Assembly: GCF_036895565.1 (NCBI RefSeq)
Contig: NZ_CP145904.1
Coordinates: forward strand, 496,001-560,000
Source: Flavobacterium sp. KS-LB2
GTDB lineage: Bacteria; Bacteroidota; Bacteroidia; Flavobacteriales; Flavobacteriaceae
Length of the DNA stretch: 64,000 nt
Direction: 5' to 3'
The notes beneath the pieces were generated by a model. It did no database searches and was not told the DNA's origin. It was given only the letters and a program-made list of their open reading frames with translations. Below, one piece after another: positions 9,249 to 26,325 of the stretch. Every line of letters starts with the position of its first letter. Within the stretch, counting starts at the first letter, position 1. The translations under genes and the position numbers were made by a program.

Positions 9249-9301
9249 TTTTTTTATTTTAAAAAGTGTATAATTGAGTGAACTCTTACTATAAAGATAA
9301 A

Positions 9302-9337
9302 CAAAATCCTCATAAACATAAGCTTATGAGGATTTTG
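9302..9337. terminator. Terminator of fabD
   Basis: A perfect 14-bp inverted repeat (9302-9315 with 9324-9337) lies 27 nt past the fabD stop. Its ends are A/T-rich, so it works in either direction. Confidence 0.8.
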
Positions 9338-9363
9338 TTTAGCAGTATCAATTGATTACTGTT

Positions 9364-10239
9364 TTATGCATTCGCAGTAACTGCTTCTTTATCTATTTTG
9401 CCAATTAATCCGGCTAATACTTTTCCAGGACCAACTTCGGTAAATAATGTAGCGCCGTCTTTTATCATTTGTTGAACAGATTGCGTCCATTTTACAGGAG
9501 CTGTCAATTGAATGATTAAGTTTTTCTTAATTTCGTCAGCATCAGATACTGCGCTTGCGGTTACATTTTGATATACTGGGCAAATAGGAGTAGCGAATGT
9601 CGTAGCTTCAATAGCTGCAGCGAGTTCTTCACGAGCCGGTTCCATCATTGGAGAGTGAAAAGCGCCTCCAACAGGTAATAATAATGCGCGTTTTGCACCA
9701 GCTGCTTTCATCGCTTCGCATGCTTTTTCGACTGCTGATGTTTCTCCTGAAATTACTAATTGTCCAGGACAGTTGTAATTTGCAGCTACTACAATTCCGT
9801 CAATCGAAGCGCAAACTTCCTCTACAATAGTGTCAGCTAATCCTAAAACAGCAGCCATAGTCGATGGTTTTATTTCGCAGGCTTTTTGCATTGCCAAAGC
9901 TCTTTGAGAAACTAACTTTAATCCGTCTTCAAAAGACAAAGCACCATTTGCTACCAATGCTGAGAATTCCCCTAGTGAATGTCCTGCTACCATTTCAGGT
10001 TTGAAATCTTCACCTAAGGTTTTTGCTAAAATCACCGAGTGCAAGAATACAGCTGGTTGGGTCACTTTAGTTTCTTTTAATTCTTCGGCAGTTCCTTCAA
10101 ACATGATGTCTGTGATGCGAAATCCTAAAATCTCATTTGCTTTCTCGAATAATTCTTTTGCAAGAGTAGAATTTTCATATAAGTCTTTACCCATTCCTGT
10201 GAATTGTGCGCCTTGACCTGGAAATACGTATGCTTTCAT
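9364..10239 (-). CDS. fabD: Malonyl-CoA:ACP transacylase
   Basis: Transfers malonyl from CoA to acyl-carrier protein, the entry step of type II fatty-acid synthesis in the cytoplasm. The 291 residues are of the usual length. The N-terminal PGQGAQ loop, the nucleophile Ser88 in GHSLGE, the conserved Arg in LVSQRALAMQ and the catalytic His in GGAFHSPMM are all visible, as is the C-terminal EVGPGKVLAGLI. It stands alone with its own -7 box and terminator rather than in a fab cluster. Confidence 0.96.
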   Translation of the reverse strand: MKAYVFPGQGAQFTGMGKDLYENSTLAKELFEKANEILGFRITDIMFEGTAEELKETKVTQPAVFLHSVILAKTLGEDFKPEMVAGHSLGEFSALVANGALSFEDGLKLVSQRALAMQKACEIKPSTMAAVLGLADTIVEEVCASIDGIVVAANYNCPGQLVISGETSAVEKACEAMKAAGAKRALLLPVGGAFHSPMMEPAREELAAAIEATTFATPICPVYQNVTASAVSDADEIKKNLIIQLTAPVKWTQSVQQMIKDGATLFTEVGPGKVLAGLIGKIDKEAVTANA

Positions 10240-10444: not shown

Positions 10445-11395
10445 CTAAAGAACGAAATATGCATTCTTTAACGGTTGAATCGCTTGATTCGATGATTGAT
10501 AAGGGTAAAATTCTTCCTCAAACTCATCTCTATATTCGTTTACCATTTGGGTTAGGTTCTTCTCAATTGTATTTGAAATTGCACTTACAGGAGTATCTGT
10601 AGGTCTGTTTTCAAATGGATCTTGCAAATGAATTGCCATTTTTTCGATTAAGAAAAAAGCTGCAGCAATTGTTGTCACTAATGGAATTTGTAGCCAGCCA
10701 ATGATATTGATCAATCCAAAAGGCAATAGGATTATAAATAAACACAACGCAAATCGAATATACATACTATACGTTGTTGGGAAAATGGTGTTTTTTATCC
10801 GTTCACATTTACCCATAGCATCACACAATCGTGTTAATGTATTGTCAATTTCAACTTGTTGGTATGCATTAATTTTATGGCTGATTAACGCTTTTTTTAA
10901 ATCTTTGGCGTGTAACATTAAAATGGCGTTTGGCACATGTTTGTGTCTTTTTACGAATCGTAATTCTTCTTCATTAAGCAACTCTTTTATGGGTTTAATA
11001 GGGTCTTTTTCTCGAAGTGATTGCCCTAAGCTATAGCACCAAGCCGCTTGTCTTTTTGCAAATTTTTCTTTAAAATCGTTTGCCTCAACAGAAAAATCAG
11101 GGTCGTTATAGAAAACAATAATTTGACGCAATAGTGTTCTGGAATCATTCACGATAGCACCCCATATTATTCTTGCTTCCCACCAGCGGTCATAGGCTTG
11201 ATTGGATTTGAATGCTAACAATAATGAGATAATTGTACCAATAATAGTAGGTATTGCGATAGGAATGTTCACCGAAACTGTTTTGAAGTAATAATGAAAA
11301 ACCTCAAAGGCGATACAAAACAGAATCACTAATGTTAGTTCTGTTTTTATTTTTCCCAACACATATTTCATTGGGATTTTCTTTTTTAATAGCAT
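10445..11395 (-). CDS. Bestrophin family (YneE-like) membrane protein
   Basis: A membrane protein of the bestrophin/UPF0187 family, whose bacterial members form pentameric ion channels. It has paired N-terminal hydrophobic helices (LTLVILFCIAFEVFHYYF and IPTIIGTIISLLLAF), the hallmark FKSNQAYDRWWEAR motif, IVNDSRTLLRQ, and two later hydrophobic segments before the DPFENRPTDTPV segment, which is highly conserved in the family. The chosen start MLLKKKIPMKYV at 11395 gives the usual length of about 316 residues; an in-frame start at 11449 would overlap the upstream gene and add an atypical extension. It is the last gene of a run behind a two-component pair and a USP-like gene. Confidence 0.88.
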   Translation of the reverse strand: MLLKKKIPMKYVLGKIKTELTLVILFCIAFEVFHYYFKTVSVNIPIAIPTIIGTIISLLLAFKSNQAYDRWWEARIIWGAIVNDSRTLLRQIIVFYNDPDFSVEANDFKEKFAKRQAAWCYSLGQSLREKDPIKPIKELLNEEELRFVKRHKHVPNAILMLHAKDLKKALISHKINAYQQVEIDNTLTRLCDAMGKCERIKNTIFPTTYSMYIRFALCLFIILLPFGLINIIGWLQIPLVTTIAAAFFLIEKMAIHLQDPFENRPTDTPVSAISNTIEKNLTQMVNEYRDEFEEEFYPYQSSNQAIQPLKNAYFVL

Positions 11396-14529: not shown

Positions 14530-16173
14530 ATGAAAAAGATTTTCTCCATTGCTTTCTTACTCCTTTTTGGGTTGTTACTTTTTTACAGTAACCTGCCAGT
14601 GCTTCATTATGGCTTCACGGGTTTTGCTGTAATTTTATTGTTATTGGTGATTCTTGGGATTTTATTTTCTCTTGGTCTCTCGGTTTCACAACAAACTAAA
14701 CAAGTTAAGATTGTTTCTAAGCCAAACAAGGTTTGGTATATTCTTGCAGCAATACTTTTAGTGTATTGCACGGCACTCCCTTTTGTAACCAGCCTTAAAA
14801 TGTTCAGGAGTGATTCCTATCAAAAGTTAATAGGCGAAGTCAAAAACGGTCAAAAAATAACCAATCACATAGCTCCAATTTCTATTGATAAAATCCGTGT
14901 GGTCGATGAGGAGCTTGCACATCTTCTTGGCGAGAAAATTTTAGGTTCACAGCCTGCTTTGGGAAGTCAGGTAGAATTAGGTGATTTTTGCATCCAAAAA
15001 GTAAATAATGACTTGTACTGGGTTGCACCATTATTGCATTCGGGTTTTTTGAAATGGTTTAACAACCAAGAAGGAACTGCGGGATATGTTATGGTTTCTG
15101 CAACCAATGAACGTGATGTAAAATTAGTTCAGAGTATAGGAGGGAAGGATATCAAGATTAAATACCAGCAAGGCGCTTATTTTCAAAGCGACATTCACAG
15201 ACACGTTTATTTTAACGGAAATGCTACGGTTGGTTTGGCTGATTTTAGTTTTGAGATTGATGATGCTGGAAATCCGTTTTGGATTGTTACTAAATATGGG
15301 AAAAAAATTGGATTCTCCGGAAAAGAAGCTACTGGAGTTATTGTGGTTGATGCCCAATCTGGTGTTATAAACGAATATTCAATTGCTAAAACACCAAAAT
15401 GGATAGACCGTATTCAGCCTTTGGATTTCATCGAAGATCAGTTAAATGATTGGGGCGAATACATTCACGGATACTGGAATTTCTCTAATCAGGATAAACT
15501 CCAAATTACAGAAGGATTGACATTGGTTTACGGGAAAGACAATAAATCGTATTGGTATACTGGATTGACTTCGGTGGGGAAAGAAGAATCTGCCGTTGGT
15601 TTTGTTTTGGTGGATACCAGAACCAAAGAAACAACTTTTTATAAACAAGGTGGCGCAACAGAATATGCTGCCCAAAGCTCTGCCCAAGGAAAAGTTCAGG
15701 AAAAAGGATATAAGGCTTCTTTGCCAATTCCCTATAATATTAATAACATTCCCACGTATGTAATGACACTTAAAGATGATGGTGGACTGGTGAAAATGTT
15801 TGCAATGGTTGCTATTTCAGATTATACGATTGTTGGTGTGGGCAATACGATGCGAGAAACGTTGACTTCGTTTAAAAATGTGTATAATATGTCGGATAAC
15901 AAAATAAACCCGAATAGTATTTCTACTAAAAAATCGCTAAAATCCGTAGTGACCCGAATCCAAAATGATGTCAAAAACGGGAATAGCTTTTATTATTTCA
16001 AAGTGAAAGATTATCCAAATATTTTTGTAGGTTCCTCTCAAATATCGAACCAATTGCCAGTTACAATTGTAGGAGACAGTATTGAAATTTCTTTTGATGT
16101 GGACTTAGAGGAAGTAATTGATGTCTCCAGTTTTGAGAATATTAATATAAAGGCAAGTATGAAATCAAAGTAA
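14530..16173 (+). CDS. Conserved membrane protein of unknown function
   Basis: A 547-residue protein. Three hydrophobic segments lie near the N-terminus (about 4-22, 29-53 and 68-90). A large, mostly beta-type soluble domain follows, probably facing outward. Distinctive conserved-looking stretches are WVAPLLHSGFLKWF, GTAGYVMVSATN, FSFEIDDAGNPFWIVTKYG, TGVIVVDAQSGVINEYS, IPKWIDRIQPLDFI-like and WGEYIHGYWNFS. I believe related sequences occur in Firmicutes annotated only as membrane proteins, but cannot name the family. The next gene is convergent across a terminator, so this is a single-gene unit. No catalytic motif is evident. Confidence 0.8.
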   Translation: MKKIFSIAFLLLFGLLLFYSNLPVLHYGFTGFAVILLLLVILGILFSLGLSVSQQTKQVKIVSKPNKVWYILAAILLVYCTALPFVTSLKMFRSDSYQKLIGEVKNGQKITNHIAPISIDKIRVVDEELAHLLGEKILGSQPALGSQVELGDFCIQKVNNDLYWVAPLLHSGFLKWFNNQEGTAGYVMVSATNERDVKLVQSIGGKDIKIKYQQGAYFQSDIHRHVYFNGNATVGLADFSFEIDDAGNPFWIVTKYGKKIGFSGKEATGVIVVDAQSGVINEYSIAKTPKWIDRIQPLDFIEDQLNDWGEYIHGYWNFSNQDKLQITEGLTLVYGKDNKSYWYTGLTSVGKEESAVGFVLVDTRTKETTFYKQGGATEYAAQSSAQGKVQEKGYKASLPIPYNINNIPTYVMTLKDDGGLVKMFAMVAISDYTIVGVGNTMRETLTSFKNVYNMSDNKINPNSISTKKSLKSVVTRIQNDVKNGNSFYYFKVKDYPNIFVGSSQISNQLPVTIVGDSIEISFDVDLEEVIDVSSFENINIKASMKSK

Positions 16174-16174
16174 T

Positions 16175-16212
16175 AAAAAAGGGCTTAAAGTATTTTCTTT
16201 AAGCCCTTTTTT
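16175..16212. terminator. Bidirectional terminator
   Basis: A perfect 16-bp stem (16175-16190 with 16197-16212) with a 6-nt loop is flanked by A and T runs. It is shared by the 547-residue membrane protein gene and the convergent Cys-rich protein gene, whose stop it touches. Confidence 0.9.
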
Positions 16213-16535
16213 TATTTTTTAGGTAATAGTTTAAAAGAAGTGGCTTTGAAGCGATTATCGACAACTTTTCCAACTACTTCTGCTTTTCGAATAGCTGCGC
16301 AAAAACCATCACTAGCATGTGCATCTCCGTGAGAATCGATGGAAGATCCGTCAACAAAATAGGATTTTCCATCAATGCGAACTGCTAATTCGCAACCGTG
16401 TCCTTCCATTCCAAACTGGCATTGTCCGCACGAGGCTTCGACAATTTGAGGCTTTGGTTCTTCTTTTTTCTCTTTATCCTGAGCGCTTGCAAGTGTCGCA
16501 GAGAATAAAATAGCTAAGTATAGTAACTTTTTCAT
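16212..16535 (-). CDS. Exported Cys-rich protein, possibly metal binding
   Basis: A 107-residue protein with a cleavable signal peptide ending in TLASAQ. After a Lys/Glu/Pro-rich linker it has ASCGQCQFGMEGHGCELAV, then IDGKSYFVDG, then HGDAHASDGFC. Four Cys and three His in about 45 residues suggest a metal or disulfide cluster. I associate this C-G-x-C-x-F-G-M...C-x-L-A-V-R pattern with a family listed as DUF6370, from memory. The DUF983 gene lies upstream on the same strand 40 nt away. Periplasmic location is inferred. Confidence 0.7.
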   Translation of the reverse strand: MKKLLYLAILFSATLASAQDKEKKEEPKPQIVEASCGQCQFGMEGHGCELAVRIDGKSYFVDGSSIDSHGDAHASDGFCAAIRKAEVVGKVVDNRFKATSFKLLPKK

Positions 16536-16575
16536 AAAGATTTCAATTTTTACTTCAGCTAAGATACTGGTTTTT

Positions 16576-16938
16576 TTACATCGAATAATTTTTAAACATG
16601 TAAATCCACAATAATCTGGAAAGACGAATATTTATAGAAGCCATTGCAAGAATTACGACGGCAATAATCGGAATAATTCTTAAATCGAAAGTTTCTTTAA
16701 AGAAGAATTGAGCAATAACATAGGTAGCAATTCCTTGAGCCACTGTTAAACCATAATTTACATACATAGCTCCAAAAAAGTAACCAGGTTCTTTTTCGAA
16801 TTTATAGTTACAGTGAGAGCAATATTCATTCATTTTAGGGAATCCAAAATTGAAAAAGATACTTTTTTCATTGAAAACTTTGCCTTTAAGACAATGAGGG
16901 CAATCATTATTCAAGATATGTACAATAGAATTTGACAT
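16576..16938 (-). CDS. DUF983 family membrane protein
   Basis: A 120-residue protein starting MSNSIVHIL; the ATG at 16938 is better than the one at 16956 because it gives the compact family form. Two CxxC pairs (CPHC and CSHC) form a predicted zinc knuckle in the N-terminal half, with FEKEPGYFFGAMYVNY, the family signature, between them and the membrane part. Two hydrophobic helices follow (about 65-82 and 90-107). The biochemical role of DUF983 is unknown; some members sit next to cytochrome oxidase genes, which is not the case here. Confidence 0.85.
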   Translation of the reverse strand: MSNSIVHILNNDCPHCLKGKVFNEKSIFFNFGFPKMNEYCSHCNYKFEKEPGYFFGAMYVNYGLTVAQGIATYVIAQFFFKETFDLRIIPIIAVVILAMASINIRLSRLLWIYMFKNYSM

Positions 16939-17030
16939 CGTAATTATTTTTATCAAAGGTATTTCTTATTCATGTCATGGATGTTTTCTATATTCGCTAA
17001 TTATAGCACAATAAAGACATTTTCGCCAAA

Positions 17031-17894
17031 ATGAAAAAATATCCTATTTATAACATTCAACGGTTTAACTGTACTTCAGTGAATAGTGATTTGTATATTA
17101 ATACCTTTAAAAATCACTTAATTGATCATAGTTTTGTTGAGGAACCACATAGGCATAATTCGTATGTGTTGGTTTTTTTTACTAAAGGCTCGGGAACACA
17201 TGAAATTGATTTCGATATATTTACGATTCAGCCGGGAAGTATGTTTTTTCTGCAACCCGGACAAATGCATCATTGGAATTTATCTGATGACGTGGAAGGA
17301 TTTGTAATTTTCTACTCTCAGGAAATGTATAATCTTTATTTTGGGCAAAAAACAATCGCCGACTATCCATTTTATTCTTCGGTGGACAATAAGCCTGAAA
17401 TGGTTTTCAATGTATCCGAATTGAAAGCGATTCTGCCTTATTTTGAAAGTCTGATTGTAGAAATACAATCGAATCAGCTTTTGAAGCAAGATAAAATAAT
17501 GAATTTGTTGGATATTATTCACATTGAAATTGCTAGAAAATATAGTGAAACACATTTGCACGAAGCACATTCGTATAATGTGAAAATTAAAAATTTCGAA
17601 GTACTTTTAGAGCATAATTTTAAAACAGAAAAGGCGCCTTTTTTCTACGCTTCACAACTTACTATTACTTTGAAACACTTGAACAGGATTTGTAATGAAA
17701 TGTTGCAAAAAACCACAACCGAAGTGATTACAGCTAGAATTATCCTTGAAGCGAAACGCATGCTGATGGATAAAAAGTTTACTGTCAATGAAATTGCAAC
17801 GGAATTAGGCTTTGATGATTATTCGTATTTCACCCGATTGTTTAAAAAAAACACAGGAATGACTCCGACAGATTTTCGTATTTCTAAAAAGTAA
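17031..17894 (+). CDS. AraC family transcriptional regulator
   Basis: A 287-residue one-component regulator. The N-terminal half is a cupin-type ligand-binding domain (HRHNSYVLVFFTKGSG, IQPGSMFFLQPGQMHHW). The C-terminal 100 residues hold two helix-turn-helix units: YASQLTITLKHLNRICNEML and FTVNEIATELGFDDYSYFTRLFKK with the signature ending GMTPTDFR. The ligand is unknown. It has no obvious target next to it. It is followed by a large palindrome rather than an ordinary terminator. Confidence 0.93.
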   Translation: MKKYPIYNIQRFNCTSVNSDLYINTFKNHLIDHSFVEEPHRHNSYVLVFFTKGSGTHEIDFDIFTIQPGSMFFLQPGQMHHWNLSDDVEGFVIFYSQEMYNLYFGQKTIADYPFYSSVDNKPEMVFNVSELKAILPYFESLIVEIQSNQLLKQDKIMNLLDIIHIEIARKYSETHLHEAHSYNVKIKNFEVLLEHNFKTEKAPFFYASQLTITLKHLNRICNEMLQKTTTEVITARIILEAKRMLMDKKFTVNEIATELGFDDYSYFTRLFKKNTGMTPTDFRISKK

Positions 17895-17925
17895 TGGGGG
17901 ATCAATGTCGTTTCCTTAAGACGTG

Positions 17926-17983
17926 TGTCAAGTCGAGCGCAGTCGAGACTAAGCGTTGAGTCTCGACTGCGCTCGACTTGACA
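17926..17983. repeat. Perfect 25-bp inverted repeat with 8-nt loop
   Basis: Arms 17926-17950 and 17959-17983 are exact reverse complements. The loop is AAGCGTTG. Each arm holds a doubled AGTCGAG motif spaced by three bases. The arm is richer in G+C than the surroundings and has no T run after it, so it is not an ordinary terminator. It sits between the AraC gene and the 3' end of purT and may be a REP-like dispersed element. Confidence 0.85.
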
Positions 17984-18000
17984 ATACTATCGATATTAAA

Positions 18001-19161
18001 TTAAGAGTGCACGGTAACCAAACTGGCTGCTTTCTTCGCTTTTTCTACCACTTCTTCAATTGGAGTTTCTAAAGTATCATTGACTAAAGCCACAGCCATT
18101 CTTCTATACGGTCTTGAAGTTGGTTTGCCAAAGATTCTGAAATCCGTTTTTGGTAAGGAAGCAATATTTTCTATTCCGGAATAGGTTGGATTGGTTGAGT
18201 TTTCCGAAGCTAAAATTACAGCACTCGCTCCCGCTTTTTCTAATGTAATTTCGAAAATGGGCAAACTCAAAATGGCTCTTAAATGCAATTCGAATTCATT
18301 GAAGTTTTGTGTTCCCGCCAAAGTTACCATTCCGGTATCATGCGGACGAGGGGATAATTCCGAGAAATAAACACCATCATCAGCTAAGAAAAATTCTACG
18401 CCAAAAAGTCCTGCGCCACCCAAAGCTTCGGTAACTTTTTCGGCCATGTCTTGCGCTTCGTATAAATCCTTGTCGGATATTCTGGCGGGTTGCCAGCTTT
18501 CCTGATAATCGCCACGTTCTTGACGATGACCTATTGGCGCACAGAAAAGTGTTGGGTTATTATTTTGAACCACGGTTAATAATGTAATTTCCGAATTAAA
18601 TTTGACGAAAGCTTCTACAATTACTTCTACGACATCGCCGCGGGAACCTTGCACAGCATAATTCCATGCTTTTTCGATATCAGCTTCGGTTTTAATGGTT
18701 GATTGTCCTTTTCCGGACGAAGACATTAAGGGTTTTACCACGCAGGGCATTCCAACGGCTTCAACTCCTTTTTGCAATTCCTCGGCAGTGGTGGCGTAGC
18801 GATACTTGGCAGTTTTTAAACCTAATTCTTTAGACGCTAAATCCCGGATTGCTTTCCTATTCATCGTGAAGTTTGCCGCTTTCGCAGAAGGAACTACGGT
18901 GATTCCTTGTTTCTAGTAATCATAAAAACGCTCGGTTCTAATGGCTTCGATTTCAGGAACGATGAAATCTGGTTTGTGTTTGGCGACGATTTTGTCTAAC
19001 GCATCTCCGTCCAACATATTGATGACTTCAAAATCATGGGCAACTTGCATTGCCGGAGCATTTTCGTATCTGTCCACAGCGATTACGATTTGTCCGATGC
19101 GTTGTGCAGCGATTGTAAATTCTTTTCCTAATTCGCCTGATCCTAGAAGTAGTATTTTCAT
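18001..19161 (-). pseudogene. purT: purT (formate-dependent GAR transformylase) interrupted by one in-frame TAG
   Basis: PurT makes formyl-GAR from GAR, formate and ATP in purine synthesis. One frame runs from ATG at 19161 to the stop at 18001, 386 codons in all, close to the E. coli enzyme's 392. It is broken only by TAG at 18913-18915, codon 83. Upstream is the intact nucleotide-fold start [15 protein letters not shown]; downstream is [23 protein letters not shown] and the whole ATP-grasp part with [24 protein letters not shown] and [10 protein letters not shown]. No other lesion is visible. The downstream part could start at ATG 18864. The TAG differs by one base from GAG, CAG or AAG. A recent nonsense mutation, sequencing error, or stop readthrough are all possible. 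Confidence 0.9.
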
Positions 19162-19223
19162 TTTTTTGAAGTCTTAATTAGAATGTAAAAATACTAAATT
19201 GCTTTTTTATGACTGCCTATTCG

Positions 19224-19580
19224 CTACAAACTTTGCCCGAAAGTCAATAGATTATTATCCGGATCCAATATCGAAAATTCTTTTTGTCCCCAAGGTTTGA
19301 TTTCCAGAGGACCATTGGGATGAATGGCAACGCCGTTGTTCAAAAAGTTTTTATAAACGGTTTCGATATCCTGCACCCGAATGTAAACTCCTGAGTAATT
19401 TTCGACAGCATTAATGGTTGCAAACTCAAAAAAATGAATTTCAATGCTGTCTTTTTGTACCATCAAATACCCTTCAAAGTCTGCATTGCCCCATTCCTGA
19501 AAACCCAATTGGTTGATATAGAAATTCCGTGTAATCGTTTTGTTGCGCATGGGTAACTTTGGGTTGATGGCGGTTAGCAT
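19224..19580 (-). CDS. VOC superfamily (glyoxalase/bleomycin-resistance-like) protein
   Basis: A 118-residue single VOC module with two beta-alpha-beta-beta-beta units. It opens LTAINPKLPMRNKTITRNFYI, where substrate-binding residues are usual, and ends FSILDPDNNLLTFGQS, the common C-terminal strand with a metal-ligand Glu replaced (DPDNNLLTF instead of DPxGNxxEF). That loss suggests a bleomycin-resistance-type sequestering protein rather than a metalloenzyme. The substrate is unknown. Its start is 63 nt downstream of purT's start region on the same strand, so they may be transcribed together. Confidence 0.85.
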   Translation of the reverse strand: MLTAINPKLPMRNKTITRNFYINQLGFQEWGNADFEGYLMVQKDSIEIHFFEFATINAVENYSGVYIRVQDIETVYKNFLNNGVAIHPNGPLEIKPWGQKEFSILDPDNNLLTFGQSL

Positions 19581-19724
19581 GATGGTTTAGGTTTTGATTA
19601 GTTCTATAAATCTAGTTTGATCACTTGTTTTATTGCTGTTGTTTGTGGTAATAAAAGAATTTTATTTGCAAAGTTGGTTTAGTGATTTCAATTCATAGCT
19701 AGTGCTATGCTCTTAACTCTAGCT

Positions 19725-19737
19725 TTTGATGGTATTG
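19725..19737 (+). repeat. Left 13-bp direct repeat bounding the AT-rich cassette
   Basis: TTTGATGGTATTG, identical to 21415-21427 in the same orientation. Including the four bases before it, 15 of 17 positions match. It lies next to the 3' end of the membrane protein gene at 19740. Confidence 0.6.
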
Positions 19738-19739
19738 CT

Positions 19740-20216
19740 TTATTTAATTAATTTTCCGGATTTAATTACAAATTTTGAAAAGGTGTTAAATAAAATAACG
19801 AACGAAATTAGGGATAAAATTGAAAAATATAGTACAAAAGATTTTAAAATTGCCATTGTGGTAATTTCAGTTTCAAAAACTTTAAATATAGTTGGAATAT
19901 ATTTTTCAGGATATAAATTTAGTAAGACAATAAGACAAATAGTTGCTATAAAAAGTATCATAGATGTTTTAAACCTATCTACAAGTTCGTGAAGTAAAGT
20001 TTTAGAATTGTTTTTACTACTTTCTTGGTTATAAAGATTTTTTGAGAAAGGAGAAGTAGCAATAATTGATAATGCAGTGATTGAAAAACCTGTTGTTATT
20101 GATAAAAAAGTGGCAACAACTTCAAAAGCTTTATTATTCAAGTTAAAACTTATTGCAAAAAAGGATATTGCAAAAACTGAAATGAAAATTTTAAGTATTA
20201 TTTTAAGTGTTTTCAT
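19740..20216 (-). CDS. Small four-helix membrane protein of the AT-rich cassette
   Basis: A 158-residue integral membrane protein I do not recognise. Four hydrophobic segments are visible: about 5-25, 33-53, 84-103 and 124-147. A polar cytoplasmic-looking loop of about 30 residues (FSKNLYNQESSKNNSKTLLH) lies between helices 2 and 3. The start overlaps the end of the upstream 268-residue gene by 14 nt, so the two are translated together. The number of helices, small size and order after a soluble partner recall RexB and other membrane effectors, but there is no sequence match that I can see. The DNA is visibly AT-rich compared with neighbours. Confidence 0.75.
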   Translation of the reverse strand: MKTLKIILKIFISVFAISFFAISFNLNNKAFEVVATFLSITTGFSITALSIIATSPFSKNLYNQESSKNNSKTLLHELVDRFKTSMILFIATICLIVLLNLYPEKYIPTIFKVFETEITTMAILKSFVLYFSILSLISFVILFNTFSKFVIKSGKLIK

Positions 20217-21009
20217 TTTTTACTTTACTTATTAATATATTGTATACATCATCAGATGAAAACATTTCATCTTCATCAACTAGTGCCTCAATATCAATTT
20301 TTCGTGAAAAGCCTTCGGTATTAAAAAGCATTCCTAAATTATTTTCATCTTTACCTGAGATAACAATGCTTTTTAGTGAATTTTTTTGTTTAAATATTGA
20401 TTTAACTTTGTCGATTAAATAATTATTTGTCAATCTATTATTATAACTTAAACTTAAAGTGGCAACACTAGCCTCATATCCATTGATCTCTTCAGATAAA
20501 ATTTTGCTTAATAATCCTGAATCACTGAATAAATTCGGCACTGCAGAAATTTTTATATTATCAAGTGTTTTTAACATCTCGATGAATTGTGTTTCATCAT
20601 AAATTTCTTTTATAACAATTGATGAAGTAGGGAAATATCTTTTAAATAATTCTATTAAGGCAGTCCTCTTTTTCGAATTACTAATCCATAGAAAGCTAGT
20701 TTTAAAATCAATGATTGCAAAAGTTTGTCTAGGTTCAACTTGATTTTTTTGTCTAGGATTTGGCTCTTCTTCGTTTGTATTAAAATTATAAACATTTGGA
20801 TTTCTTGGTCCTACCATTCCTTCTCCAAAATTCATTTTCATGTAATTTTCTTCATATTCTATATTGAAAATTTGAACTTTACTATCATCATTGTTTGTAT
20901 ATGAACCCGTCGGAAGATTCTGTTGAAAATTATCAATATATAATCTTTCATCATTTAGATATAGAAAAACTCCGCTAAAAATTAAAGATTTCTTATTTGC
21001 TTTCTTCAT
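20203..21009 (-). CDS. Unknown soluble protein of the AT-rich cassette
   Basis: A 268-residue protein, no signal peptide or membrane helix, not recognised. The N-terminal 90 residues hold beta-like stretches (SLIFSGVFLYLNDERLYIDNF). Residues 65-90 are an Asn/Glu/Pro-rich linker. The remainder looks alpha/beta: FAIIDFKTSFLWISNSKKR, IDEALVDEDEM-like acidic end, and a central ISAVPNLF. The last third (VISGKDENNLGMLFNTEGFSRKIDIEALV) looks well ordered. Hand counts of two 60-base lines in the gene gave 17 and 23 percent G+C against 42 percent in lines of the flanking VOC and aspC genes. It overlaps the four-helix membrane protein downstream. A sensor/effector pair is a guess. Confidence 0.75.
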   Translation of the reverse strand: MKKANKKSLIFSGVFLYLNDERLYIDNFQQNLPTGSYTNNDDSKVQIFNIEYEENYMKMNFGEGMVGPRNPNVYNFNTNEEEPNPRQKNQVEPRQTFAIIDFKTSFLWISNSKKRTALIELFKRYFPTSSIVIKEIYDETQFIEMLKTLDNIKISAVPNLFSDSGLLSKILSEEINGYEASVATLSLSYNNRLTNNYLIDKVKSIFKQKNSLKSIVISGKDENNLGMLFNTEGFSRKIDIEALVDEDEMFSSDDVYNILISKVKNENT

Positions 21010-21235
21010 ATAATTTTTAAATTGTTATTTCTAAATTTATTGACTTCTTCCTTTTTTGTGTGTGCATTGTCGCTAGTTAACTTGCTGACAGGATTTATAT
21101 CGTTATTAAAATCTACCTAAATTTTGCGGCTTTAGGTAGCCAAACGAAATTTAAGTTAATCTCTTAAAAGTATAAAATTAAAAATACAAATCATCAGAAA
21201 TTTCATTGTTTTTTTGTTTGTGTTGAGAATTGTAA

Positions 21236-21255
21236 GGACTGCTCACGAGCAGTCC
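21236..21255. repeat. 9-bp palindromic hairpin
   Basis: GGACTGCTC (21236-21244), AC, GAGCAGTCC (21247-21255). It is a tight hairpin without a T run, about 230 nt upstream of the soluble cassette gene's start. Confidence 0.7.
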
Positions 21256-21290
21256 GTAACACATTAAAATAAACATGATTCTAGCAGGGT

Positions 21291-21380
21291 TTGCGTGAGG
21301 GAGTGAAGTGGAAATCCTTTATGTTTTTTCTTTAAAAATATAAAGATTGCAGCGGAAATCCCGACCCTTGTGGTCACGCC
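21291..21380. repeat. Dispersed Flavobacterium-type intergenic repeat element
   Basis: Two related half sites, 21301-21317 and 21345-21361 (13 of 17 positions equal, ending GGAAATCC), flank a small A/T stem (21317-21322 with 21340-21345). The outer ends read GCGTGAGG and GGTCACGC. From memory, elements of this form are scattered between genes in Flavobacterium genomes. No coding function seen. Confidence 0.55.
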
Positions 21381-21390
21381 CAAAAACAAG

Positions 21391-21417
21391 AAAACCCCAA
21401 GAATGTCTTGAGGCTTT
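21391..21417 (-). terminator. Terminator of aspC
   Basis: On the minus strand CCTCAAG pairs with CTTGGGG (one T-G pair) around a short loop, followed by TTTTCTTG. It lies about 55 nt past the aspC stop. Confidence 0.65.
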
Positions 21418-21427
21418 GATGGTATTG
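21415..21427 (+). repeat. Right 13-bp direct repeat bounding the AT-rich cassette
   Basis: TTTGATGGTATTG, identical to 19725-19737. It lies between the aspC stop and its terminator, overlapping the stem by 3 nt. Confidence 0.6.
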
Positions 21428-21473
21428 TAAGTTGGATTTTTGAGTTTCTAACTTTCGATTTTATGAGGTTTGA

Positions 21474-22661
21474 CTATAGTGCCAAAGCATCTTTGATTCT
21501 TTTTAATGCTTCTTTCAAGATCTCGTCGCTGGTTGCATATGAGAAACGGATGCAGTCAGGATTTCCAAAAGCGTCACCTGTTACCGTTGCTACGTTAGCT
21601 TCGGCCAAAAGGTACATTGATAAATCCATTGCATTTTTGATTTCGGTTCCTTTCAAAGTTTTTCCGAAGAAAGAAGAAATGTCCGGGAATACGTAAAAAG
21701 CTCCTTCAGGAACGTTGATTTTTACGCCTGGAATTTCTTTTAATAATCCTACCACTAAATCTCTACGGCTATGGAAGGCATCAACCATGTGTTTCAATAC
21801 ACTTGGATCAGCATCTACTGCTGTAATAGTAGCGCGTTGTGCGATAGAATTTGCCCCTGAGGTTACTTGGCCTTGAATTTTTGTACATGCTTTTGCAATG
21901 AATTCTGGTGCGCCAATATATCCAATTCTCCATCCTGTCATGGCGAAAGCTTTAGCAACTCCATTTACGGTAATTGTTCTTTCTAACATTCCCGGGATAG
22001 ATGCGATGCTGCAAAAAGTCCCTGAGAAATTGATGTGCTCATAGATTTCATCAGCTACAATATATACATGCGGATATTTCTCCAAAACTTTGGCTAATGC
22101 CGTCAATTCTTCTCTGTTGTACACCGATCCACTTGGATTACAAGGAGAACTGAACCACATCATTTTTGTTTTAGGTGTAATCGCTGCTTCTAATTGTTCA
22201 GGTGTGATTTTGAAATCAGTATCTACAGATGTAGGAACTTCTACAGGGACTCCACCGGATAATTTCACGATTTCGAAATATGAAACCCAGTAAGGTGCCG
22301 GTAAAATTACTTCGTCACCGTCGTTTAGCATTACTTGTGCAATGTTGTATAAGGACTGTTTTGCTCCAGTTGAAACTACAATTTGAGACGGTTTGTACTC
22401 TAAATTATTGTCTCTTTTGAATTTTCTGCAGATGGCTTCTTTTAATTCAGCATATCCTTCTACCGGAGAATAAGTACTGTAATTTTCGTCAATCGCTTTT
22501 TTCGCTGCTTCTTTGATGAAATCAGGCGTATTAAAGTCAGGTTCGCCTAAACTTAAGCTGATAATGTCTTTTCCTTGTGCTTTTAATTCTCTGGCTAAAG
22601 CAGCCATTGCTAGTGTTTGTGATGTTGCTAGATTGTTAATTCTATCGGATAATGGATTCAT
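21474..22661 (-). CDS. aspC: Aspartate aminotransferase (class I PLP aminotransferase)
   Basis: Transfers the amino group of aspartate to 2-oxoglutarate, linking the TCA cycle with amino-acid synthesis; fold-type I PLP enzyme of the 1-gamma/AspAT subgroup. The 395 residues have the N-terminal LSLGEPDFNTP substrate loop, the STGAKQSLYN cofactor turn, the Asn-Pro pair in SPCNPSG, the DEIYEH Asp, the PLP lysine in VNGVAKAFAMTGWRIGY and the C-terminal Arg in CIRFSYA. Related prephenate or aromatic aminotransferases cannot be fully excluded. It is a single-gene unit. Confidence 0.92.
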   Translation of the reverse strand: MNPLSDRINNLATSQTLAMAALARELKAQGKDIISLSLGEPDFNTPDFIKEAAKKAIDENYSTYSPVEGYAELKEAICRKFKRDNNLEYKPSQIVVSTGAKQSLYNIAQVMLNDGDEVILPAPYWVSYFEIVKLSGGVPVEVPTSVDTDFKITPEQLEAAITPKTKMMWFSSPCNPSGSVYNREELTALAKVLEKYPHVYIVADEIYEHINFSGTFCSIASIPGMLERTITVNGVAKAFAMTGWRIGYIGAPEFIAKACTKIQGQVTSGANSIAQRATITAVDADPSVLKHMVDAFHSRRDLVVGLLKEIPGVKINVPEGAFYVFPDISSFFGKTLKGTEIKNAMDLSMYLLAEANVATVTGDAFGNPDCIRFSYATSDEILKEALKRIKDALAL

Positions 22662-22693
22662 TGTAATAGGTTGTAGTTAGTTTATTAATTAGT

Positions 22694-22717
22694 AGAGATG
22701 CACCGCAGTGCATCTCT
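22694..22717. repeat. 10-bp hairpin (AGAGATGCAC / GTGCATCTCT)
   Basis: Arms 22694-22703 and 22708-22717 enclose CGCA. It resembles the GACGCGA hairpin at 7867-7890 in form (A-G-A-x-x-x-G-C arms). It lies 13 nt past the desaturase stop and so may serve as its terminator, though there is no T run. Confidence 0.6.
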
Positions 22718-22730
22718 TGGTGTTATATGA

Positions 22731-23825
22731 CTATGTAAGTTCCGGTTTCATTCCCAATTCTTTCAAATGCTTGAAATGAGCAATAACAGCACTTCGCATT
22801 GTTTTGTATTCATAATACGGCAAGTTGCATTCCTGCGCAGTTTCTTTTACGATACTGGCAATTTTACCATAATGTACGTGACTGATATTTGGAAAAATAT
22901 GGTGCTCAATTTGGTGATTTAATCCGCCAGTGTACCAGTTTACGATTGCGTTTTTTGGAGCAAAATTAGTAGTGGTAAATAATTGGTGTATCGCCCAAGT
23001 ATTGTCCATTTCACCTAATTCATTTGGAGATGGATTAATTGTTTCTTCTACAACGTGTGCTAATTGGAACACAACGCTTAATATTAAACCAGCTGTGTAA
23101 TGCATCACGAAGAAACCAATAAGCACTTTCCACCATGTAATTCCAATAACGATTGGTAAAACAATCCAGATAGAAACATAAATTATTTTTGTAATAATTA
23201 AGGTAGTCCAAAGTGTTTTTGGGCTTTTTGCTTCTCCGTACGATAATTTTCTTTTCAAGTAGCTTCTCATCTGTTTGAAATCAGTTGTGATGGCCCAGTT
23301 GAACGTTAGTAATCCGTATAGAAAAACAGAATAATATTGTTGAAAACGGTGAAAATTATACCATTTTGCTTCTTTAGTAAAACGTATAACACGTCCAGCA
23401 TCTAAATCCTCATCGTGACCAGGAATGTTCGTATAGGTATGATGTAAAACATTGTGTTGCACTTGCCAGTTGTATACATTTCCTGCCAAAACATAAATAG
23501 TTCCACCCATGAATTTGTTGACCCAGGTTTTATTAGAATACGATCCGTGATTTCCATCGTGCATCACATTCATTCCGACACCAGCCATTCCAATTCCCAT
23601 AACGATGGCTAACAGAAGATGTGCCCAAAATGGCATTCCAAGTGTTAGAATTAAAAAATAAGGTGCAAGAAAAACGGAGAAGAGAATTATAGTTTTCAAA
23701 TAGAGTTTCCAGTTTCCAGTTTTTTGAATGTTGTTTTCTTTGAAGTAATTGTTAACCCGTGAGTTAAGTGTTCTAAAAAACTTTAGGCTATCTTGCTTAG
23801 CAAATGTTGGCGCATTATTATTCAT
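22731..23825 (-). CDS. Membrane fatty-acid (acyl-lipid) desaturase
   Basis: An integral membrane di-iron desaturase of 364 residues that inserts a double bond into acyl chains, adjusting membrane fluidity. The three histidine boxes are intact: HDGNH, HNVLHH, and QIEHH with Gln in place of the first His. A Q-x-x-H-H third box marks front-end (linoleoyl-CoA/delta-6-like) desaturases. Unlike eukaryotic front-end enzymes there is no cytochrome b5 domain, so an external electron donor is needed. Several hydrophobic helices lie between the boxes. The position of desaturation cannot be read from sequence. Confidence 0.92.
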   Translation of the reverse strand: MNNNAPTFAKQDSLKFFRTLNSRVNNYFKENNIQKTGNWKLYLKTIILFSVFLAPYFLILTLGMPFWAHLLLAIVMGIGMAGVGMNVMHDGNHGSYSNKTWVNKFMGGTIYVLAGNVYNWQVQHNVLHHTYTNIPGHDEDLDAGRVIRFTKEAKWYNFHRFQQYYSVFLYGLLTFNWAITTDFKQMRSYLKRKLSYGEAKSPKTLWTTLIITKIIYVSIWIVLPIVIGITWWKVLIGFFVMHYTAGLILSVVFQLAHVVEETINPSPNELGEMDNTWAIHQLFTTTNFAPKNAIVNWYTGGLNHQIEHHIFPNISHVHYGKIASIVKETAQECNLPYYEYKTMRSAVIAHFKHLKELGMKPELT

Positions 23826-23842
23826 ATATTTTCAATAAAGTT

Positions 23843-23850
23843 CAAAGGTA
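23843..23850 (-). promoter_or_regulatory. -7 box of the desaturase gene
   Basis: TACCTTTG on the minus strand, 17 nt before the start codon, fits TAnnTTTG. A TTTTG lies about 23 nt further upstream. Confidence 0.5.
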
Positions 23851-23907
23851 ATTATTATAAATTTTTCGATATACAAAATTGAGATAAAAATTTTAACTGT
23901 AAAGTAT

Positions 23908-23915
23908 TACTTTTG
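23908..23915 (+). promoter_or_regulatory. -7 box of rsmG
   Basis: TACTTTTG ends 16 nt before the rsmG start and fits TAnnTTTG. The divergent desaturase promoter lies 57 nt away. Confidence 0.5.
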
Positions 23916-23931
23916 TTAAAAAAAATAATAG

Positions 23932-24561
23932 ATGGACGAGATTCTTAAGTATTTTCCTAATTTAACTGACATTCAGAAAGAACAGTTCGAAAAATTAGAT
24001 TTTTTATACCATGATTGGAATGAAAAAATCAATGTTATTTCGAGAAAAGATATTGACGCATTGTACACCAAACATATTCTGCATTCCTTGGGAATAGCTA
24101 AAATTATAAAATTCGAACCGGGAACTTATGTTTTAGATGTTGGGACTGGAGGTGGTTTTCCAGGAATTCCATTGGCGATTCTTTTTCCAGAAACACGTTT
24201 TTATTTGATTGATGTCATTGCAAAAAAAATAAAAGTGGTTCAGGCTGTTGCCGAAGGATTGGAATTGAAAAATGTAAAAGCAGAGCAAATACGTGCCGAA
24301 AATGTAAAAGGTGATTTCGATTTTATCGTCAGTCGTGCCGTAACTAATATGCCAGATTTTGTTTCTTGGGTAAAAACCAAAATCAAAAAGAACAACAAAC
24401 ACGAATTGAAAAACGGAATTTTGTATCTAAAAGGAGGCGATTTAACCGAAGAATTAAAGGATTTCCCAAAGGCGACGGAATATAATCTAGCTGATTTCTT
24501 CGAAGATGAATTCTTTGAAACTAAGAAAGTGGTGCATTTGCCGTTGAAGTTTCAATCGTAA
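23932..24561 (+). CDS. rsmG: 16S rRNA m7G527 methyltransferase
   Basis: Methylates N7 of G527 in 16S rRNA using SAM; loss gives low-level streptomycin resistance in other bacteria. The 209 residues show the family start WNEKINVISRKDIDALYTKHILHSLG-type region, the SAM loop VLDVGTGGGFPGIPLAI, the LIDVIAKKIKVVQAV segment and the DFIVSRAV motif. It is a single gene divergent from the desaturase, ending at a shared terminator. Confidence 0.96.
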   Translation: MDEILKYFPNLTDIQKEQFEKLDFLYHDWNEKINVISRKDIDALYTKHILHSLGIAKIIKFEPGTYVLDVGTGGGFPGIPLAILFPETRFYLIDVIAKKIKVVQAVAEGLELKNVKAEQIRAENVKGDFDFIVSRAVTNMPDFVSWVKTKIKKNNKHELKNGILYLKGGDLTEELKDFPKATEYNLADFFEDEFFETKKVVHLPLKFQS

Positions 24562-24614
24562 TCATAAGGTTGAAAGTCATATAGCCGAAAAATAAAAGCG
24601 GGTAAAAAAATACA

Positions 24615-24646
24615 AAAAGCCGAATCTAATTTTAGATTCGGCTTTT
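24615..24646. terminator. Bidirectional terminator between rsmG and pruA
   Basis: A perfect 14-bp stem (24615-24628 with 24633-24646) has loop ATTT and is flanked by A and T. It serves both convergent genes. Confidence 0.85.
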
Positions 24647-24696
24647 ATATTTACAAAGTCCGTTAAGACTTTTGACTTTCAAACTTTAGGACTGAT

Positions 24697-26325
24697 TTAT
24701 TCTCCTAAAAACGGATATCTGTAATCAACCGGAGTAATAAAAGTTTCTTTGATGGTTCTTGGCGAAGCCCAACGTAATAAGTTCAATGCTGAACCTGCTT
24801 TATCGTTAGTTCCTGATGCTCTTGCGCCACCAAAAGGTTGCATTCCTACAACAGCTCCCGTTGGTTTATCATTGATGTAGAAATTACCGGCCGCATTTTG
24901 CAATTTGGTAGTCGCTTGCTCAATTGCATAACGATCTTGGCTGAAAACTGCACCTGTTAATGCATATTCTGAAGTGGTATCAACTAGTTCTAATGTTTCT
25001 TCCCATTGGTCGTCTTCGTAAACGAAAATCGTCATTACAGGTCCGAACAATTCCGTTTCCATGGTTGAGTAATGAGGATTTGTGGTTACGATAATCGTTG
25101 GTTCAATAAAATAACCAACAGATTTGTCATAATTTCCTCCAACGATAATTTCGGCATCGGCATCTTTTTTAGCTTGGTCAATAAAACCAGCCAATTTGTC
25201 GAAAGAACCTTCGTGAATAACCGCAGTAATAAAGTTTCCGAAATCTTCAGGAGAACCCATTTTCATCGATTTTGTATCGGTGATTAATTGCTCTTTTATA
25301 GCTGGCCACAAACTTTGTGGAACATAAGCTCTTGAAGCTGCAGAACATTTTTGACCTTGAAATTCAAATGCACCACGAACAATTCCTGTTGCTACTTGTT
25401 TTGGATTCGAACTTGGATGAGCGATGATAAAATCTTTTCCTCCAGTTTCACCAACAATTCTTGGGTAAGTTTTGTAATGGTGAATGTTTGTTCCAATTTT
25501 TGCCCAGATATCTTTAAATACGTGAGTTGAACCTGTAAAGTGAATTCCAGCGAAATCACGGCTTGCTAAAACAGTATCCGTAATCATCAAAGCATCTCCA
25601 AAAACAACGTTGATAACGCCATCAGGAACTCCTGCTTCTTTGAAAACTTCAATGATGATTTGTGCAGAGAAAACTTGGCTGTCGCTTGGTTTCCAAATCA
25701 CAACATTTCCCATCATAGCAGCACTTGCAGGAAGATTTCCGGCAATAGCAGTAAAGTTGAACGGTGTAATCGCGTACACAAAACCTTCAAGAGGTCTGTA
25801 CTCTAAACGGTTCCACATATCCGAATTTGATTTAGGCTGATCGTTGTAAATTTGGGTCATAAATTCTACGTTGAAACGTAAAAAATCGATAAATTCACAG
25901 GAAGCATCAATTTCGGCTTGGTGTATGTTTTTTGATTGCGCAATCATTGTTGCGGCATTTATTCTTGCTCTGTATGGACCAGCGATTAATTCAGCTGCTT
26001 TTAGGAAGATAGCTGCTCTTTGTTCCCAAGCCATATTTGCCCATGCAGTTTTCGCTTCTAATGCGTTTGCAATCGCTTTTTCAACATGAGATTTTTCGGC
26101 TAAATGATACGTTCCTACGACATGTTTATGGTCGTGAGGCGCAGTCATGTTTTTTGTGTTTCCAGTTCTAATTTCTTCGCTTCCGATATATAAAGGTACA
26201 TCGATTGTTGAATTCCACATTTTTGTGTAAGCTGCTTGTACAGCTGCTTTTTCTGGTGAATTTGGTGCGTATCCTTTTACTGGTTCGTTTACCGCTTTTG
26301 GTACATGAAAAAATCCTTTTAACAT
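24697..26325 (-). CDS. pruA: 1-pyrroline-5-carboxylate dehydrogenase
   Basis: Oxidises glutamate semialdehyde (from proline breakdown) to glutamate with NAD. The 542 residues are the stand-alone P5CDH form rather than a PutA fusion. Aldehyde-dehydrogenase motifs are complete: ITPFNFTAIAGNLPASAAMMGN for cofactor binding, the GETGGKDF glutamate site, and the catalytic Cys in FEFQGQKCSAASRAY. The C-terminal TGAVVGMQPFGGARASGTNDKAG is the P5CDH-specific signature. There is no partner prodh gene in the window. Confidence 0.96.
   Translation of the reverse strand: MLKGFFHVPKAVNEPVKGYAPNSPEKAAVQAAYTKMWNSTIDVPLYIGSEEIRTGNTKNMTAPHDHKHVVGTYHLAEKSHVEKAIANALEAKTAWANMAWEQRAAIFLKAAELIAGPYRARINAATMIAQSKNIHQAEIDASCEFIDFLRFNVEFMTQIYNDQPKSNSDMWNRLEYRPLEGFVYAITPFNFTAIAGNLPASAAMMGNVVIWKPSDSQVFSAQIIIEVFKEAGVPDGVINVVFGDALMITDTVLASRDFAGIHFTGSTHVFKDIWAKIGTNIHHYKTYPRIVGETGGKDFIIAHPSSNPKQVATGIVRGAFEFQGQKCSAASRAYVPQSLWPAIKEQLITDTKSMKMGSPEDFGNFITAVIHEGSFDKLAGFIDQAKKDADAEIIVGGNYDKSVGYFIEPTIIVTTNPHYSTMETELFGPVMTIFVYEDDQWEETLELVDTTSEYALTGAVFSQDRYAIEQATTKLQNAAGNFYINDKPTGAVVGMQPFGGARASGTNDKAGSALNLLRWASPRTIKETFITPVDYRYPFLGE

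Follow-up and report, generated by a model that had tools for sequence, protein, structure and literature searches.

The locus considered here lies in Flavobacterium sp. KS-LB2 (NZ_CP145904.1, 496,001-560,000), within a stretch of 64,000 nucleotides (nt) that is called the window below and whose coordinates are used throughout, and it raises a simple question: what are two overlapping genes of low G+C content, P1 and P2, doing between an aminotransferase gene that we take, after an initial annotation of this DNA, to be aspC, and a gene that is presumably purT (Table 1)? Our answer, to which we assign a probability of roughly 70%, is that the pair forms a RexAB-type abortive-infection module. 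This means that the pair probably works like RexAB, with a P1 that, judging from its model, is probably of the RexA/RdgC fold; membership of the RexA sequence family is not claimed. The initial annotation had described both open reading frames (ORFs), of 268 and 158 amino acids with an overlap of 14 nt, and the ORF list bears it out; the low G+C that it reported for the pair relative to the flanks was equally confirmed, with values of 26.1% for P1 and 23.1% for P2 versus 39.0% for aspC, 41.8% for the C-terminal part of purT and 33.7% for the whole window, where a dip is visible at ~19,650-21,150.

Predicted products of the gene pair

As for P1, its structure model (predicted local distance difference test, pLDDT, 89.9) has the two-domain RexA/RdgC fold that a RexAB-type sensor would have: lambda RexA was the top match among the solved structures compared, with RdgC also among the best, and RdgC was the strongest PDB match by Foldseek (E 7e-6); RdgC-type proteins are also found among the viral matches of P1. 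The P2 model (pLDDT 81.5) places helices at residues 2-23, 28-54, 74-100 and 120-156, and hydropathy finds hydrophobic stretches in all four, in agreement with the four-helix membrane protein proposed at the outset. P2 is thus predicted to be the small membrane protein with four transmembrane helices that a RexAB system carries in an adjoining gene, and the P1 and P2 genes are neighbours at all five loci read; the overlap is 14 nt in F. petrolei (L004), F. xueshanense (L005) and F. magnum, and 8 nt in Chlorobium. Conservation in P2 peaks in helix 2 and in the loop that links it to helix 3, and residues 54-83 hold 15 of the 42 near-invariant positions; this is a conserved central loop like the one shown for Sbash gp31, and in P2 it would face the cytoplasm.

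A large protein database contained 63 homologues of P1 and 225 of P2 (E ≤ 0.001), with no functional name among the 63 listed for P1 or among the 120 matches listed for P2. Among defence-system databases, with which the initial annotation suggested a comparison, PADLOC has no family matching P1 or P2 at E ≤ 1. One PADLOC candidate, PDC-M53B, was matched weakly by 11 of 88 P2 relatives (alignment A1; best 7e-5); P1/P2 differ from it in that the P2 of the window gave no match and no M53 model occurred among the matches of the P1 family, and the term PDC-M53 was not found in the literature searched.

Recent transfer and carriage

P1/P2 occupy the same place in the two sister species F. petrolei (L004) and F. 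xueshanense (L005), and their synonymous divergence (dS) is ~5 to 25 times below that of the flanking genes. Against F. petrolei, dS was 0.013 for P1 and 0.019 for P2, versus 0.270 for aspC, 0.332 for a desaturase gene and 0.278 for the C-terminal part of purT; against F. xueshanense, the values were 0.112 and 0.114, versus 0.661, 0.559 and 0.697, respectively. These values mean that transfer or recombination brought the pair to this site after the species had split; the two genes are mobile and have travelled together from genome to genome. Regarding its distribution, P1 was detected in three of 398 Flavobacterium genomes sampled (its own, G670 and G506; an additional match in G032 is due to chance), in one of 397 genomes sampled family-wide (its own; the G148 match is due to chance) and, by a family profile search, in two of 296 across the phylum (its own and G984). 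Relatives of P1 or P2 occur in, among other named organisms, F. magnum, F. qiangtangense, F. inviolabile, Myroides sp. DW712 and Chlorobium sp. BLA1; none turned up in phage records, plasmid records or IMG/VR.

In F. magnum (G506), the pair is a two-gene cassette in a long array; over the 59.9 kb read, the array has 76 attC-like repeats. The 5' start of the cassettes is complementary to their own attC outer arm over 6-10 nt, including a fixed GTT, in 75 of 75 cases, whereas shuffled controls averaged 17.1 and reached at most 25; the cassette of the pair starts at L058:9753, with its attC at 11,066 and 10 matching bases. A tyrosine recombinase of 349 amino acids lies ahead of the array (L079:4333-5382); the integron-integrase model matched it in two stretches, both under the cut-off, and also matches in 14 of 14 control genomes. 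By its attC-like ends and the adjoining tyrosine recombinase, the F. magnum copy is an integron gene cassette.

In Chlorobium sp. BLA1 (G984), the pair has a G+C of 25.9%, versus 51.4% and 53.0% in outlying stretches on either side, and a neighbouring gene of 232 amino acids is likewise low; portal, terminase, endolysin and major head genes adjoin the pair. A repeat of the 3' end of the transfer-messenger RNA (22 nt, 95% identical) occurs at L078:8986 and L101:19341, with an integrase gene (G984:C4:61869-62384) just within the far end of the element, which is an apparent prophage of ~30 kb in ssrA (L078 and L101; G984:C4, ~32,985-63,260). The pair sits at the end opposite the integrase, in the half of the prophage covered by the gene reading.

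The slot between aspC and purT

The slot after aspC is variable in Flavobacterium. Of 39 loci retrieved around the best aspC matches, 33 contain both aspC and purT; the counts refer to this slot alone. Twelve of the 33 are empty (no ORF of at least 90 amino acids), and seven hold other defence-like cargo: a PDC-M24A/B pair (3.7e-80 and 4.1e-102; L039:1532-2811, DUF6978 with DUF1828/1829), assigned in two further loci (L041, L046) from their matching ORFs; an OLD/GajA-like ATPase (2e-63; L042:1600-3402); PDC-S01 (L051); PDC-M21A/B (2e-45 and 5.8e-50; L088:1381-2591); and a HipA-like gene whose partner has no match (L084). P1/P2 occupy one slot (L047, F. xueshanense); of the remaining 13 loci, nine carry a gene of 618-624 amino acids, alone or with others, which we presume to encode a U32-type peptidase, and four carry other genes.

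The initial annotation had also noticed a 13-mer, TTTGATGGTATTG, on both sides of the pair, and had read it, while allowing for chance, as marking the edges of an insertion. Both copies are where it placed them, with no third place in the window at up to one mismatch. Shuffled sequences give 0.31 matches on average and at least two in 5 of 100 shuffles, and exact direct repeats of at least 13 nt, spaced at most 2 kb apart, number 20 in the window. Identity to F. petrolei is 29-30 of 30 per 30-nt step shown at 19,620-19,859 and 20,940-21,209, and 99-100% in the intervening 200-nt steps; beyond 21,209 it falls to 23 of 30. The right 13-mer, adjoining the aspC terminator, lies ~200 nt beyond the end (~21,210) of the tract common to the sister species, and it is exact in two of 19 relatives scanned, L039 with other cargo and L040 with an empty slot; in each, 125 nt separate the 13-mer from the beginning of a hairpin repeat. 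On these two grounds, its distance from the tract and its presence in relatives devoid of the pair, a target-site duplication was rejected; the right 13-mer is older at the aspC site than P1/P2. An exact 13-mer is present once in the fetched F. petrolei stretch and absent from the F. xueshanense one; in the latter, the left junction at 19741 falls inside the P2 stop codon. The empty site that the initial annotation had told its readers to look for exists, as counted above, though not as a site with a single 13-mer. The window copy was also tried as an integron cassette and rejected, with no inverted match of at least 9 nt between 19,561-19,760 and 21,001-21,300.

Finally, three side observations concern the surroundings. 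The hairpin repeat has 17 matches in its own genome, itself included, and its start motif occurs near aspC in 18 of the 19 relatives scanned. An in-frame stop separates the two ORFs of purT here, and the gene is a single ORF in F. petrolei and F. xueshanense. In F. xueshanense, the DNA of the VOC gene (L005 ~9270-9660) aligns at 86-93% in 200-nt steps and has no ORF of at least 80 amino acids, so that this gene is probably broken.

Table 1. Positions of the features discussed (window coordinates, unless another sequence is given)
Feature	Position	Strand	Basis or remark
P1, 268 amino acids, soluble, predicted RexA/RdgC-like fold, proposed sensor	20203..21009	-	ORF list, structure model
P2, 158 amino acids, predicted four-helix membrane protein, proposed effector	19740..20216	-	ORF list, model, hydropathy
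P1/P2 overlap, 14 nt	20203..20216	-	ORF list
aspC-type aminotransferase, right flank of slot	21474..22661	-	
VOC-family gene, left neighbour, in some relatives only	19224..19580	-	Family name from the initial annotation
purT, left flank of slot	18001..19161	-	Name presumed; split by in-frame stop
Left 13-mer	19725..19737		Inside the near-identical F. petrolei tract; missing from F. xueshanense; no insertion mark
Right 13-mer	21415..21427		Belongs to the aspC 3' region
Tract near-identical to F. petrolei	19620..21210		Edges approximate; left junction in F. xueshanense at 19741
Hairpin repeat beside aspC terminator, right shoulder of slot	21285..21412		Genome repeat search
F. magnum chromosomal integron	L079, L058, L080; G506:C1:3070000-3129900		

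Proposed mode of action and competing explanations

Among the closest parallels is lambda RexA-RexB, in which a soluble protein of ~270-280 amino acids with the RexA/RdgC-like fold, predicted here for P1, is followed by a membrane protein of ~150 amino acids with four predicted helices. P1/P2 differ from it in that their genes overlap and in their carriage by a chromosomal slot and an integron cassette besides an apparent prophage; next to the window copy, neither a CI repressor nor a phage immunity region was seen among the ORFs of 15,000-26,000, which were read by eye as housekeeping. Compared by description, RexABpp (PP_5643-5644), from a P. putida prophage also named P1, stands apart as a prophage-encoded and experimentally proven system downstream of a CI-like repressor. 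Sbash gp30/gp31, CarolAnn gp44/gp43 and Butters gp30/gp31 share with P1/P2 the arrangement of two genes for a soluble protein and a membrane partner, and Sbash also the central loop; all three are phage-encoded, unlike P1/P2, and Sbash gp30 has a DUF4747 motif.

If the pair acts as the lambda and P. putida systems do, P1 would bind or sense either phage DNA or replication complexes, possibly as a dimeric DNA clamp, and change conformation; with the phage as the presumed trigger, it would then activate P2, which would permeabilise or damage the membrane, so that growth stops and the infected cell yields no phage. Direct support exists for the pairing, the predicted fold, the predicted helices and the mobility. 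Several results argue against classing P1/P2 simply as RexAB. Neither protein resembles its lambda counterpart at the sequence or profile level: a profile comparison of the P1 family with 30 RexA proteins found no similarity (probability 0.2%), P1 matches neither PF15969 (RexA) nor DUF4747, and P2 has no similarity to the single lambda RexB sequence. Of the steps proposed, sensing is the one held least firmly, because DNA binding by lambda RexA did not correlate with exclusion, according to PMC11077077. Overall, the recently acquired defence or exclusion module of RexA-RexB layout put forward in the initial annotation gains support from the predicted fold, the low dS, the defence-like cargo of the slot and the carriage by integron and apparent prophage; its 13-bp boundary marker is wrong.

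An unlikely alternative, although the best placed, assigns the roles the other way round, with P1 as a DNA-acting effector that P2, its membrane partner, keeps inactive until infection. This scheme is reported for mycobacteriophage Butters gp30/gp31, as summarised in PMC12894663, and the anatomy of P1/P2 suits it as well as it suits a RexAB-type module; however, the same summary has the other four of the five systems acting through the membrane partner. The conserved helix 2 and central loop of P2 also resemble a working part.

The pair might instead be a membrane-acting toxin-antitoxin or stress-response pair that travels on mobile elements and is not directed at phages, a reading to which we give little credence. 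Two-gene integron cassettes are frequently toxin-antitoxin pairs, and HipA-like and AbiEii-like genes occur in the slot of relatives; however, P1 exceeds the size of a typical antitoxin and has a RexA/RdgC-like predicted fold, and the order of sensor and then membrane protein agrees with RexAB. Very improbable, finally, is an RdgC-like modulator of recombination or replication that is anchored in the membrane and retained for DNA metabolism: the Foldseek and viral matches would suit it, but P1 has no RdgC match in Pfam and has a membrane partner at every locus read, and its rarity within the genus (just the three genomes above, its own included), its presence in an integron cassette as well as in an apparent prophage, and its recent transfer do not.

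Implications for RexAB systems

The five described RexAB-like systems that PMC12894663 counts are all phage- or prophage-encoded. PMC11077077 mentions some RexA homologues in bacterial genomes that lack a RexB partner and/or lie outside prophages, and raises the question of whether exclusion is the true function of RexAB or a by-product. Integron cassettes carrying defence genes are known in Vibrio (PMC12409362). As for Bacteroidota and for integrons, none of the titles and abstract openings searched, which cover subscription journals sparsely, describes a RexAB system in either.

In conclusion, we lean towards the view that Bacteroidota harbour a sequence-novel RexAB family that is not bound to phages and that spreads as a compact mobile unit among integron cassettes, the ends of prophages and a defence slot in the chromosome, which would make RexAB a general bacterial immune module beyond a prophage accessory. 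A complete RexAB-like pair outside a phage could hardly serve the CI-Cro switch, and it would therefore separate a role in defence from one in lysogeny. If this is true, the old question of the real function of RexAB becomes directly testable, and a Bacteroidota example joins the candidate defence cassettes of integrons; in Flavobacterium, the slot between aspC and purT is flagged as a place to seek more defence genes.
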